From Candidatus Eiseniibacteriota bacterium (lineage in GTDB: Bacteria; JAFGKV01), in assembly GCA_025453925.1 (NCBI GenBank), contig JALOPK010000238.1, forward strand, positions 1 through 5,562: 5,562 bases of DNA. Direction: 5' to 3'. A program made the translations under genes and the position numbers. Of this stretch, positions 1 through 5,562 are shown in pieces. Within the stretch, counting starts at the first letter, position 1. Every line of letters begins with the position of its first letter. The notes below the pieces were generated by a model. The model ran no database searches and was not told the origin of the DNA. It saw nothing but the letters and a program-made list of their open reading frames with translations.

Positions 1-1299
1 GGGCCGTACCCCGACGGGCCCGCGGTGACCCGTGCATGCCTGGCATGCCATGAAGATGCGGCACACCAGGTCATGAAGACGGTGCACTGGACCTGGGAGA
101 CGCATCCGGTGCAGGTTCCCGGTCACGAAGAGCCGGTGCGCCTGGGTAAGAAGAACGTCATCAACAACTTCTGCATCAGCGTGCAGTCCAATTGGTTCGG
201 GTGTACCGCCTGTCACGCTGGATATGGGTGGGAAGACGATTCCTTCGACTTCTCACAGACCGAGAATGTCGACTGCCTGGTGTGCCATGATCAGTCCGGC
301 ACCTACGTGAAGGGAAACGGCGGGTATCCGGCCCCGGGGGTCGATCTTGCCGCCGTCGCGCAGAGCGTTGGATCACCCACGCGCGAGAATTGCGGGGGGT
401 GCCACTTCCGAGGAGGAGGCGGCGACGCAGTGAAGCACGGCGATCTGGACGACACGCTTCGCAATCCGCGGGAGCGCGTCGATGTGCATATGGGAAAACA
501 CGGCATGGTCTGCATCGATTGTCACCGAGCTACAGACCACCTGATCCGGGGCCGCTCCATCTCGGTGAGCATCGACAACGAGAACCGGCTGTACTGCACT
601 GACTGCCACGCCGAGAGACCGCATGGGGATGAGCGTCTCGACGGCCACACCGCCGCGGTGGCCTGCCAGACGTGCCACATCCCGCAGGTCGCCTTGCGCG
701 AAGCCACCAAGATCCACTGGGATTGGTCGGCCGCCGGCCAGGACCTGGGGGACGATCCCCACTCCTATCTGAAGAAGAAGGGTCGGTTCGTGTACCAGAA
801 ATCGCTCGTTCCCGAGTACTACTGGTTCGACGGCACGGCAGGCCGCTACCTGCTGGCTGACCGTGTCGATACTGCTGCGCCGACCCCGCTCAATCCCCCC
901 CGGGGCCATCTTGCCGACCCCGCAGCTACGGTGTGGCCGTTCAAGGTTCACCGGGGCCTTCAGATCTACGACACGGAGAATCGCTACCTCCTTGTTCCCA
1001 AGACGGTGGGCTCCGGCGGGTATTGGGAGGACTTCGACTGGGACAAGGCGGCACGCCTGGGATCAGAAGCGACCAAACTCCCTTATAGCGGTCACTTCGG
1101 GTTCACCTCCACGGAGATGTTCTGGCCGCTGACCCACATGGTCACCCCCACCGATCAGACGCTCCGCTGCCACGACTGCCATGTCACGAGCGGAATCATG
1201 GATTGGGAAGCCCTGGGCTACCCCGGTGATCCATCGCAATGGGGAGGGCGATCCCGGCTCCGGCAGGCGGGCCTCATCGCCTCGGGAGAACTCCGATGA
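1..1299 (+). CDS. otr: Octaheme c-type cytochrome, tetrathionate reductase (OTR) family, 5'-truncated
   Basis: Residue 1 here is the GTG codon at base 25, but the frame is open from base 1 with no ribosome site, so the signal peptide and N-terminus lie upstream. Eight CXXCH heme-c motifs start at residues 5, 60, 84, 123, 163, 191, 214 and 382, the number expected for periplasmic OTR, which in Shewanella reduces tetrathionate and, in vitro, nitrite and hydroxylamine. The only Cys outside these motifs is C50 in NNFC. With N47, and with D134 and K137 in GGGGDAVKHGD, it reproduces the spacing of the Shewanella active-site residues as I recall them (Asn61/Cys64, Asp150/Lys153), where the Lys is the unusual distal ligand of the catalytic heme. 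No CXXCK motif is present, which argues against NrfA- or TvNiR-type nitrite reductases. The stop overlaps the next start. Family assignment is strong; the physiological substrate is uncertain. Confidence 0.9.
   Translation, partial: GPYPDGPAVTRACLACHEDAAHQVMKTVHWTWETHPVQVPGHEEPVRLGKKNVINNFCISVQSNWFGCTACHAGYGWEDDSFDFSQTENVDCLVCHDQSGTYVKGNGGYPAPGVDLAAVAQSVGSPTRENCGGCHFRGGGGDAVKHGDLDDTLRNPRERVDVHMGKHGMVCIDCHRATDHLIRGRSISVSIDNENRLYCTDCHAERPHGDERLDGHTAAVACQTCHIPQVALREATKIHWDWSAAGQDLGDDPHSYLKKKGRFVYQKSLVPEYYWFDGTAGRYLLADRVDTAAPTPLNPPRGHLADPAATVWPFKVHRGLQIYDTENRYLLVPKTVGSGGYWEDFDWDKAARLGSEATKLPYSGHFGFTSTEMFWPLTHMVTPTDQTLRCHDCHVTSGIMDWEALGYPGDPSQWGGRSRLRQAGLIASGELR
1284..1288 (+). promoter_or_regulatory. 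Ribosome binding site for the heptaheme-cytochrome b gene
   Basis: GGGAG lies 7 bases before the ATG at 1296, inside the last codons of the octaheme gene. It decides the start. The in-frame ATG at 1239 has no comparable Shine-Dalgarno sequence and would add 19 residues before the hydrophobic signal segment. The 1296 start gives an ATGA stop-start overlap typical of translational coupling. Confidence 0.7.
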
Positions 1300-3965
1300 G
1301 CTGGGGCCTCATCGCCTTCATTACCGTGGTGGCCGCGACGCAGCCCGGTATCTCCCAAGCTCCTGCCACGCATGCGTCCGCCACGATCCACCCCACCTAT
1401 CCGCTGCTGGATGACCAGGGGCGGAGTGTCCTTGAGTCCTCGGGCCCCGTGTCGCCGATTGCGACGTGCGGTGCCTGCCACGATACTCGCTTCATCGAGA
1501 CGCATAGCGCCCATGCCGATGCCGGCTTCAGTGCACTGGGGACCCCCGGATCGGCACCCAGCGGGCGCGCATGGGACACCAGCACCGGGATCTTCGGGCG
1601 CTGGTATCCCCTGACCTATCGGTATCTCTCGCCCCTGTCTGATTCGATCATCGACCTGAGCACCGCCGACTGGATTCGGTTCTACGGGCGGCGGCACGTG
1701 GGTGGTGGGCCGGCGGTGTACACCCGCGATAGGGGGAGGCTCGTCGACCTTGATGCGAGCGGGGGCTCCGATGCCGAAACAACGGCATACGACCCCGTCT
1801 CGCAGCGCCGGGTTTCCTGGGAATGGCGCCGCTCCGGCGTGGTGGAGCTGAACTGCTTTCTCTGCCATATCGCGAATCCCGACAACGCCGCACGAATCGC
1901 CGAGCTGGAGGCCGGTGCATTCGGTTGGGCGAGTACGGCGACCCTGTCGACCACCGGCCTGGTGTCGAAGCATCCGTCGGGGTGGCGGTGGAATCCGGCT
2001 GGTTTCGATGCGCAGGGCCACGTCCGGACGGAACTCCTCTCGGTGCGGGAGTCGACGAATGACAACTGCGCGTTGTGTCATGGTCTTGTCCATGGTGAAC
2101 CAGACGTCCCGGTCTTGCTCAAGGGGTGCGTACCCGACTACTGGACCACCATGACCACGGGCCAGATCATCTCCCCGCAGAGGGTGGCGGAATCCGGCAT
2201 GAACATCAGAGGCAAGACCACCCTCACGCGCGCATGGGACGTGCACGCGGAACGGCTCGTTGACTGCGTGGATTGCCACTACTCGCGCAACAACCCCGTG
2301 TACTGGGACGCCCGGGATCCCGGACGGCCTGCGCATCTGCGCTTTGAGGCCCGTCGGATGTCCCTTGGTGCCTACCTGCACCGCCCCAGCCATCGGCTCG
2401 CCAACAGCCCGTCCGACCCGGTGGGAGAGGGAGCCGCCTCCTTCGAGGGGTGCACGGGGTGCCATGACGCACGACGAGCCCACCGTGACCTCCCGTACGC
2501 CGCGCGGCATGAGCAGGTGCTGGCATGCAATGCGTGCCACGTCCCCCGTCTCTTCGCCCCGGCCAGGGAGATGCTTGACTGGACCGTGCTGACGCCCGAC
2601 CGGAAGCCGCGCACCGTGTGCAGGGGAGTATCCTCGCCTTTCGCCGACGCCAGCGTCCTGGTGGAAGGATACGAACCGGTGTTGCTCCCGGCCCGCCAGA
2701 GCGACGGCCGGGAGCGCCTGGCACCCCACAACCTCGTCGGTACGTGGTTCTGGGTTGCGGGCGCGCCCGAACGGCCCGTGAGGCTTGATGACCTTTCGGC
2801 TGCGTACTTCGACGGCGATGGCTATCACCCCGACATCGTCGCTCTCCTGGATGGCAACCGGGATGGAGCCGTGGATCCCGGCGAGCTGGTGTTGGATTCC
2901 GCTGCGAAGATCGAGCGAATCAGCTCCCGGCTGCGCGCACTCGGACTTCAGGATCCGCGGATCGTCGCCGAGCTGCAGCCCTTCGCCATCCATCATGGCG
3001 TCGCCGCCAAGGGGTGGGCCACGGAGGATTGCGCTGCCTGCCACCACCCCCAGTCGAGGATCGACCGGCCGTTCACCGTGGGACGCGGGACGCCGGGAGA
3101 CGTTCGCCCGATGCTGGCGGGCGGCACCGGCGTTCGGCTGGCCGGCCAGGTGCGGGCAGAGGACGGTCGAATCGACTACCGGCCACGTTCCACCGCCGCG
3201 GGCCTCTACGTCCTGGGCCATGACAGCCATCCCCTGAGTGACGCCGTCGGCGTCATCGCGGTGGCTGGCGTCCTCTTCGGGGTTGCCGGACATGGCGCGC
3301 TGCGGCTCCGTGTCGCGCGAAAGATGCCTCGGCATCACGGAATAGCGCGGGCCGTCTATATGTACACGGCCTACGAGCGGTTCTGGCATTGGCTGCAAGC
3401 GCTGACGATCATCGCCCTCATCGTGACCGGGCTGGAGATCCACCTCCCCGGGACCGTCAGACTGCTCGGCTTCCGCGCTGCTGTGCGTACCCACACCATC
3501 GTCGCCGCGGTGGTGGTGGTGAACGCCTTCCTGGCCCTGTTCCATCATCTCGCGGGAGGGCAGATCCGGCAGTACTTCCCCGAACCCCACGGGTTCTTCG
3601 ATCAGGCGATACGCCAGGCCCGCTACTATCTGATCGGGATCTTCCGTCATGAACCCCACCCCTTCGTCAAGATACCGGAGCGCAAGCTGAACCCTCTCCA
3701 GCAGATCACCTACCTGGCGCTCCTGAACATCCTGCTGCCGCTCCAGATTGCCACGGGCATTCTCATGTGGGGCGCCGAACGGTGGCCAGTGGTTGACGGA
3801 ATGCTGGGGGGGCTGCGCACGCTGGCGCCGATCCATGCCGTGGGGGCGTGGCTCTTTCTGGCATTCCTCATTGCCCACATCTACCTGACCACGACGGGCC
3901 ATACGGTCCTCTCCAACATCAAGGCCATGCTCACCGGATGGGAGAACATCGATGACGTCGCGTGA
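1296..3965 (+). CDS. Exported heptaheme cytochrome c fused to diheme membrane cytochrome b
   Basis: This 889-residue protein probably links the quinone pool to the periplasmic octaheme enzyme. Residues 1-22 resemble a Sec signal peptide (hydrophobic LIAFITVVAA, cleavage near ISQA), though its n-region lacks Lys or Arg. CXXCH motifs start at 58, 187, 258, 324, 386, 411 and 579. A perfect EF-hand loop occupies 519-530 (DGNRDGAVDPGE). After a membrane helix at about 646-666 and a basic, likely cytoplasmic stretch comes a four-helix cytochrome b domain of the hydrogenase/formate dehydrogenase/PhsC type (helices about 697-714, 733-751, 803-823, 845-865). H698, H733, H847 and H861 are the likely ligands of two b hemes; the 14-residue gap between the last two matches my memory of FdnI His155/His169. 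Topology puts the c hemes in the periplasm and the C-terminus in the cytoplasm. The start is ATG 1296, with 1239 the alternative. Domain calls are strong; partner and direction of electron flow are inferred. Confidence 0.87.
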   Translation: MSWGLIAFITVVAATQPGISQAPATHASATIHPTYPLLDDQGRSVLESSGPVSPIATCGACHDTRFIETHSAHADAGFSALGTPGSAPSGRAWDTSTGIFGRWYPLTYRYLSPLSDSIIDLSTADWIRFYGRRHVGGGPAVYTRDRGRLVDLDASGGSDAETTAYDPVSQRRVSWEWRRSGVVELNCFLCHIANPDNAARIAELEAGAFGWASTATLSTTGLVSKHPSGWRWNPAGFDAQGHVRTELLSVRESTNDNCALCHGLVHGEPDVPVLLKGCVPDYWTTMTTGQIISPQRVAESGMNIRGKTTLTRAWDVHAERLVDCVDCHYSRNNPVYWDARDPGRPAHLRFEARRMSLGAYLHRPSHRLANSPSDPVGEGAASFEGCTGCHDARRAHRDLPYAARHEQVLACNACHVPRLFAPAREMLDWTVLTPDRKPRTVCRGVSSPFADASVLVEGYEPVLLPARQSDGRERLAPHNLVGTWFWVAGAPERPVRLDDLSAAYFDGDGYHPDIVALLDGNRDGAVDPGELVLDSAAKIERISSRLRALGLQDPRIVAELQPFAIHHGVAAKGWATEDCAACHHPQSRIDRPFTVGRGTPGDVRPMLAGGTGVRLAGQVRAEDGRIDYRPRSTAAGLYVLGHDSHPLSDAVGVIAVAGVLFGVAGHGALRLRVARKMPRHHGIARAVYMYTAYERFWHWLQALTIIALIVTGLEIHLPGTVRLLGFRAAVRTHTIVAAVVVVNAFLALFHHLAGGQIRQYFPEPHGFFDQAIRQARYYLIGIFRHEPHPFVKIPERKLNPLQQITYLALLNILLPLQIATGILMWGAERWPVVDGMLGGLRTLAPIHAVGAWLFLAFLIAHIYLTTTGHTVLSNIKAMLTGWENIDDVA

Positions 3966-4573: not shown

Positions 4574-5562
4574 ATGGCACCATTTGCCATCATCGACATT
4601 CTGGGCAAGCCCCTCGCCTACGGAGTCTACCTCCTCATCGGCGTCGCGTTCGGCGCGGTGCTGGAGATGGCCGGCTTTGCCGACTCCCGTCGCCTGGCTG
4701 CGCAGTTCTACCTGAAGAACATGACCGTGCTCAAAGTCATGTTCACCGCCATCGTGACCGCCATGGTCCTGATCTTCCTCGCATCGGGACTGGGGCTCTT
4801 GGACTACACGCGTGTCTGGGTCAATCCGACGTACCTGGTGCCCGGCATCGTGGGCGGGCTGATCATGGGTGTCGGCTTCATCATCGGTGGCTTCTGCCCC
4901 GGCACGTCCATGGTCGCGTTGGCTACCCTTAAGGTCGATGGGCTGTTCTTCTTCCTGGGCGCGTCCTTCGGCGTGTTCCTCTTCGGCGAGACGGTGGGGC
5001 TCTACCCGGAGTTCTTCCACAGCACCAGCATGGGCCGCTTCACGCTGCCGCAGTGGCTCGGCCTGCCGACCGGCGTGGTGGTCATCATCGTGGTGGGCAT
5101 GGCGCTGTTCATGTTCTGGGGCGGTGAGAAGCTGGAGGCGGCGTTTGGGGGCGTGTCGAAACAGACTGGAAGATCCCGGTGGAAGCTCGCGGGCGCGGGC
5201 ACGCTGGTCGCGTTGGCGTTGGTGGTCCTCGCGATTGGCCAGCCATCCGCTGCCGATCGGTGGGCGTATGTCGCCAGTGACAAACAACCGCTCCTGGATG
5301 GCAGGAAGGTCCATGTCGAGCCCGGAGAGCTGGTGGAGCTTTCCCAGAATGATCAGATCAACTTGATGCTGCTGGATGTGCGGGACGAGCGGGATTTCAA
5401 CCTCTTCCACCTGATCGATGCGCAGCGGGTGACGTTGGGCGAGATCCAGGATGGCCTGGTGAGCCTGCGGCTGCTGTCGGCTCCTCAGAACACGGTGACG
5501 GTGCTCATGTCCAATGACGAGCTACGCGCCGTCGATGCATGGAAGCTCCTGGTCGCGGGCGG
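4574..5562 (+). CDS. YeeE/YedE family membrane protein fused to a degenerate rhodanese domain, 3'-truncated
   Basis: The frame opens at ATG 4574 and stays open to the window edge, giving 329 complete residues. Residues 1-185 form a YeeE/YedE (PF04143) unit with hydrophobic helices near 15-33, 53-74, 87-108, 121-140 and 163-183. It contains GGFCPGTSMVAL, with C108 at the second conserved Cys position of the family; C108 is the only Cys visible. A further helix at about 204-222 follows a basic RSRWK stretch, which by the positive-inside rule places what follows in the periplasm. Residues about 250-329 look rhodanese-like: LLDVRDERDFNLFHLIDA matches the family's DVR...E/D-F/Y...H...A pattern, and a beta-strand then a helix (TVTVLMSNDELRAVDAWKLL) follow. 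Ser313 falls where the persulfide-forming Cys is expected, so sulfurtransferase activity is unlikely. The protein probably pairs with the preceding half-transporter. The C-terminus is not seen. Confidence 0.85.
   Translation, partial: MAPFAIIDILGKPLAYGVYLLIGVAFGAVLEMAGFADSRRLAAQFYLKNMTVLKVMFTAIVTAMVLIFLASGLGLLDYTRVWVNPTYLVPGIVGGLIMGVGFIIGGFCPGTSMVALATLKVDGLFFFLGASFGVFLFGETVGLYPEFFHSTSMGRFTLPQWLGLPTGVVVIIVVGMALFMFWGGEKLEAAFGGVSKQTGRSRWKLAGAGTLVALALVVLAIGQPSAADRWAYVASDKQPLLDGRKVHVEPGELVELSQNDQINLMLLDVRDERDFNLFHLIDAQRVTLGEIQDGLVSLRLLSAPQNTVTVLMSNDELRAVDAWKLLVAG

Follow-up and report, generated by a model that had tools for sequence, protein, structure and literature searches.

A heptaheme cytochrome c-cytochrome b fusion encoded beside octaheme tetrathionate reductase as a probable electron conduit on an OTR-type scaffold without heme 2

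Our analyses support the interpretation of a heptaheme cytochrome c-cytochrome b fusion, encoded directly 3' of a gene of the octaheme tetrathionate reductase (OTR) family and hereafter called the partner, as a membrane-anchored electron conduit. The protein is probably an OTR-type scaffold minus heme 2, which would carry electrons from quinol through its heptaheme domain to OTR for the reduction of sulfur oxyanions; the passage of electrons between the two proteins, its direction and its substrate are what we infer, and electron transfer would presumably be the only role of the partner. Its relationship to OTR can fairly be stated as an old divergence inside the OTR-fold superfamily rather than a recent copy of the neighbouring gene.

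The window, i.e. the whole stretch of DNA that was analysed, comprises 5562 bases and corresponds to one entire contig (C262) of a draft genome, with four genes on a single strand. The OTR assignment is supported by a score of 551 bits against TIGR04315 (cut-off 375) and by a phmmer E-value of 1.2e-141 against 1SP3; in the open frame, CXXCH motifs lie at residues 13, 68, 92, 131, 171, 199, 222 and 390, and the catalytic set is present. The ATG of the partner overlaps the OTR stop codon (ATGA at 1296-1299), and the last gene runs off the contig end, its 3' part missing. No match to the window was found in the plasmid collection searched.

1..1299 (+): OTR family gene, 5' end missing at the contig edge
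172-174 (+): C58 of the OTR NNFC segment
202-216 (+): OTR heme-2 motif CTACH
433-435 (+): K145 of the OTR DAVK segment
1296..3965 (+): partner, heptaheme cytochrome c-cytochrome b fusion, 889 aa
4041..4562 (+): YeeE half-transporter (sulfur transport family) with an RGCTSG motif; PF04143, E 8.3e-22
4574..5562 (+): YedE half-transporter fused to a rhodanese-like domain; PF04143, E 1.7e-11; Rhodanese, E 0.0046

Of 76 YedE-rhodanese proteins (loci L006, L024-L026 and L036 onward), 67 have GGCG at the C-terminus, a possible sulfur-carrying cysteine tail, and the rhodanese loop of the proteins from the window and L006 seemingly does without the usual catalytic Cys.

A scan of named genomes recovered 306 relatives of the partner, and the best 80 of these 306 belong mostly to Chloroflexota, with others in KSB1, Gemmatimonadota, Planctomycetota, Latescibacterota and further groups. 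Counted together with the loci from genome searches, these 80 gave 85 non-redundant partners. An OTR gene lies directly upstream of the partner in all 82 testable loci, the contig beginning at the partner in the other three. Cytochrome b is fused to the partner in 75 of the 85 loci and encoded by a separate gene in eight, while YeeE is found in 77 and YedE in 74, the exceptions being mostly at contig ends, L112 apart. OTR and partner distances are correlated (Mantel r 0.763, equalled in 0 of 1000 permutations), part of this r reflecting species phylogeny. The two genes form a conserved, co-inherited cassette. At one further locus (L035, 7339-7656, minus strand) OTR is followed by a partner remnant of about 105 aa in which heme 1 alone is left, apparently a product of decay.

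The partner of the window carries seven CXXCH motifs, at residues 58, 187, 258, 324, 386, 411 and 579, the final base of the last one being 3044. Its features, including the membrane module, are as follows, hemes being numbered by their OTR equivalents.

1467..1481 (+): heme 1 motif CGACH
1596..1628 (+): segment GRWYPLTYRYL, matching GKLUPPAYRQL, the selenocysteine segment of an eight-heme family
1683..1712 (+): putative fossil heme-2 motif YGRRHVGGGP, residues 130-139
1854..1868 (+): heme 3-equivalent CFLCH
2067..2081 (+): heme 4-equivalent CALCH
2265..2279 (+): heme 5-equivalent CVDCH, with an invariant DVH (H317) just before
2451..2465 (+): heme 6-equivalent CTGCH
2526..2540 (+): heme 7-equivalent CNACH
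2850..2885 (+): EF-hand-type loop DGNRDGAVDPGE, between hemes 7 and 8
3030..3044 (+): heme 8-equivalent CAACH
3246..3302 (+): first transmembrane helix, with H666 and R670 kept in 84 of 84
3363..3938 (+): cytochrome b domain, Ni_hydr_CYTB (PF01292), E 1.5e-22

Outside these motifs, seven His are invariant among partners (H32, H73, H317, H366, H396, H405 and H567), a number that would match seven bis-His hemes one to one, individual distal ligands being assigned only putatively; OTR additionally has the DAVK lysine. In the EF-hand-type loop, D519, G524 and E530 are at least 90% conserved and the Pfam EF-hand is detected in some members, making it possibly a calcium site.

The heme domain of the partner is predicted to share the OTR fold over its full length. 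An AlphaFold2 model built from a 72-sequence alignment, as a protein chain without hemes, reached a mean pLDDT of 88.4 and a pTM of 0.89, and a Foldseek search of the PDB retrieved OTR (1SP3) as the sole significant match (E 3.2e-8, probability 1.00; next match 0.3). A structural aligner superposed model residues 6-615 on residues 1-442 of the 1SP3 chain (Z 12.7, 345 residues, 4.3 A), so that the OTR scaffold proposed in the first-pass annotation was borne out by a fold that, in this heme-free model, is collinear with 1SP3 from end to end. A model of a selenocysteine (Sec)-type octaheme relative (L117) reached a pLDDT of 57 and a pTM of 0.47 and was left out of the fold search.

At the sequence level the two proteins match weakly by BLASTP (E 8e-4, with an alignment limited to hemes 6-7, weak alone), and the by-eye comparison of the first-pass annotation therefore needed stronger evidence. 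The profile-profile check that it had proposed gave significant matches to OTR (E 6.5e-11 and 1e-10), which cover hemes 4-7 only; neither of the outcomes set beforehand as refuting, the lack of an OTR match or a match to a different multiheme fold, was found. Both profile-profile and fold resemblance are well beyond chance. Against the TIGR04315 family model the partner scores 22.8 bits, below its cut-off of 375. The local correspondences that had been listed are indeed present in the sequences: the last two CXXCH lie 168 residues apart in both proteins (411-579 in the partner, 222-390 in OTR), the pair before is separated by 25 and 23 residues respectively, DVH precedes CVDCH in the partner and CIDCH in OTR, and VACQTCHIP/LACNACHVP and VDCLVCH/LNCFLCH are as described. 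The WFDG/WVAG match after heme 7 carries little weight: the two stretches lie 53 and 75 residues downstream of that heme, offsets whose difference makes them poor evidence of homology. The spacing of 168 residues was likewise rejected as a homology marker, because it varies from 96 to 207 among partners (mode 168), and in the closest eight-heme family it is about 219-297.

The partner had further been described as lacking octaheme motif 2, NNFC and DAVK. No intact motif or residue was found, motif 2, NNFC and VKHG being present in none of 86 partners including the window protein, whereas the neighbouring OTRs have NN[FY]C in 82 of 83 and VKHGD in 78 of 83; the description needs one correction, since motif 2 persists as the remnant YGRRHVGGGP. 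In partners generally, this remnant reads [FY]GxRHxGGGPA and aligns with CxxCHPGGGP, the heme-2 motif of eight-heme relatives. The window protein, like each of the 85 non-redundant partners of the retrieved loci, has exactly seven CXXCH, and neither Cys of the heme-2 site is present in any of the 86: the first position is mostly Phe or Tyr and the second (R133) is Arg in 75, while 76 retain the motif His (H134), about 84 GGG, 83 the Pro and at least 80 GGGP. Among the same 86 partners, the position that holds Sec in eight-heme relatives is occupied by Asn or Asp in 82; the window protein has Tyr there. These patterns suggest that heme motif 2 and the active-site residues disappeared together. 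What is left of the site is well kept in most members, but some can do without it, as the segment is mostly or wholly deleted in two of the 85 partners (L027 and L028) and in the additional relatives L128-L131; elsewhere the fossil motif is too conserved for plain decay, and the site may therefore serve another role. The earlier claim of a lost catalytic heme thus stands as regards ligation, missing in 86 of 86. As to direction, loss is likelier than gain, but the tree is unrooted, and rooting it on the branch of the partners would turn seven hemes into the ancestral state. A further seven-heme relative (L152, genome G146) has FGRHWPGGGVG at the heme-2 site, perhaps a separate loss.

The origin proposed in the first-pass annotation, a duplication of the neighbouring OTR gene, is not supported by the phylogeny. 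In the unrooted tree, partners and OTRs form separate groups across several phyla (SH-aLRT 99 and 99), and the N-terminal half of the partner and the surroundings of its heme-2 site resemble another family, the Sec-type octahemes. This family provides the closest full-length profile (hhalign, 537 columns that take in hemes 1-2, E 7.3e-56). An HP motif near the N-terminus, the segment W-x-P..YR and the fossil GGGP are common to it and the partner, and not to OTR. A tandem duplication of the adjacent gene followed by loss of heme 2 is therefore very unlikely in our judgement, even though the genes are adjacent, their folds are identical in type and heme-pair motifs are common to both; on a tree of the core spanning hemes 3-8, a sister relationship of partner and OTR was not rejected (AU p 0.435), so that a duplication, if any, may have been a very old event. 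Still less credible, and highly improbable as we see it, is an ancestral state of seven hemes, to which the lineages of OTR and the Sec-type octahemes added heme 2 in one event. A single gain is as short as a single loss when the unrooted tree is rooted on the partner branch, but all other sampled families (OTR, the Sec type, the non-Sec type and the type of L126, L127 and L148) have eight hemes, and a His-GGGP that is conserved although its cysteines are missing reads more naturally as a remnant.

The fusion to a quinone-type cytochrome b, also claimed at the outset, was confirmed by matches to PF01292 (80.6 bits, cut-off 30.1) and to PhsC (NF011582), the nearest equivalog (E 1.3e-37, below the equivalog cut-off). 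The cytochrome b helix His H698, H716, H733, H847 and H861 are fully conserved, and H666 and R670 of the first helix persist even in loci with the remaining cytochrome b as a separate gene. A PhsC-like cytochrome b with conserved helix His suggests a quinol site. In the mechanism that we propose, this C-terminal module would oxidise menaquinol, its b hemes would pass electrons to the heptaheme domain (bis-His hemes 1 and 3-8) and thence to the adjacent OTR, whose heme 2 would reduce a sulfur oxyanion such as tetrathionate, and the YeeE/YedE-rhodanese transporter would import thiosulfate or sulfane sulfur. OTRs in several loci have a hydrophobic anchor at the N-terminus.

Other roles can be read from the same cassette. 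Electron flow through cytochrome b modules and multiheme wires can be reversed, and YeeE and YedE are sulfur-uptake genes, as would suit an oxidative direction in which OTR takes electrons from thiosulfate or a different sulfur compound and the heptaheme-cytochrome b protein feeds them to the quinone pool; we regard this as unlikely, since the known OTR activities are reductive, with tetrathionate, nitrite and hydroxylamine as substrates (PMC4484225), and the nearest cytochrome b, PhsC, comes from a reductase. The conserved remnant raises the question of whether the heme-2 site is still occupied, by a non-covalent heme or as an Arg-His anion site, with the partner retaining chemistry of its own. 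The retention of Arg, His and GGG in most members is what such a site would predict, but no Cys is left for heme attachment, the His is missing in several members and the segment is mostly or wholly gone in those named above, and we find this reading distinctly unlikely. We attach similarly little credence to the idea that a repurposed remnant, binding an anion or a non-covalent heme, makes OTR and the partner a two-scaffold enzyme in which the latter does chemistry or gates electrons. A quinol-fed conduit to OTR is the reading that we consider probable.

Among known systems, OTR itself (1SP3; TIGR04315) resembles the partner in its whole fold, in the order of hemes 1 and 3-8, in DVH-CxDCH and in the close heme 6-7 pair. 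It differs in having eight hemes instead of seven, the partner being devoid of the heme-2 CXXCH, the NNFC Cys and the DAVK Lys; the partner, unlike OTR, has a longer N-terminus, the EF-hand-type loop and the fused membrane cytochrome b. Published work calls the function of OTR cryptic and names a conserved Lys as a ligand of its second, catalytic heme (PMC11024163). The demonstrated partner of the Shewanella OTR is a weak-binding, shared tetraheme cytochrome, with a Kd of about 1.6 mM (PMC4484225). An OTR with its own quinone-linked, structurally related wire and sulfur-uptake genes, and with a wide distribution, would make the physiological role and electron donor of this enzyme directly testable.

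The Sec-type octahemes (e.g. L005, L029, L032 and L117), found in a search of 386 genomes, combine eight hemes with an in-frame TGA. They share with the partner the N-terminal HP motif, a GMYGK/GxFGKW segment and GGGP after heme 2, and differ by an intact heme 2, with CxxCHPGGGP and a TGA (Sec) ahead of it, where the partner has GxRHxGGGP and Asn, Asp or Tyr. No OTR is adjacent to them in the loci examined, and a cytochrome b fusion was seen only in L031. The TGA lies within GMYGK-U-PP..YRQLA shortly before heme 2 (L005:4350-6782; L029:5578-8034, minus strand; L031:6316-8817, minus strand; L032:5707 onward; also L117, L118, L119, L136, L137, L140, L142, L144, L154 and L155) and likely encodes selenocysteine at the catalytic heme. 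In a 2026 review, an octaheme cytochrome of the tetrathionate reductase family is listed in a Sec form on the basis of GenBank annotation (PMC13188914). Paralogues of the Sec type with heme 2 intact and Sec absent have the segment MYNRxSVPHMFxxAP (L030, L135, L138 and L139), and a further octaheme family with CGQCHxGG at motif 2 (L126, L127 and L148) groups with OTR.

PhsC (NF011582) is similar to the partner in its cytochrome b membrane module with conserved helix His; the differences are that the cytochrome b of the partner is fused to a heptaheme cytochrome and that a molybdoenzyme gene is absent from this operon.

A published precedent is MmcA of Methanosarcina, a seven-heme OTR relative without heme 2 that acts as an electron conduit (PMC11024163). 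MmcA (TIGR04314) and the partner are alike in having a seven-heme OTR-type scaffold devoid of heme 2 and its Lys; TIGR04314 matches 70 of 72 partner relatives (best E 5e-17), the window protein itself scoring 22.1 bits, far below the cut-off of 250. MmcA is archaeal and encoded in an rnf operon, away from otr, whereas the partner is bacterial, carries cytochrome b and lies beside otr, its neighbours in the window being OTR, YeeE and YedE and not an rnf operon. A literature search found no paper on a heptaheme partner of OTR, and the accessible part of a report of OTR in Anaerolineae does not mention one; a bacterial cassette in which OTR is paired with such a quinone-linked wire appears to be undescribed. 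Since MmcA has been published, a heme-2-less wire on the OTR scaffold is known in principle, and the two proteins together suggest that this scaffold has served as a conductor without heme 2 more than once, or in several settings.
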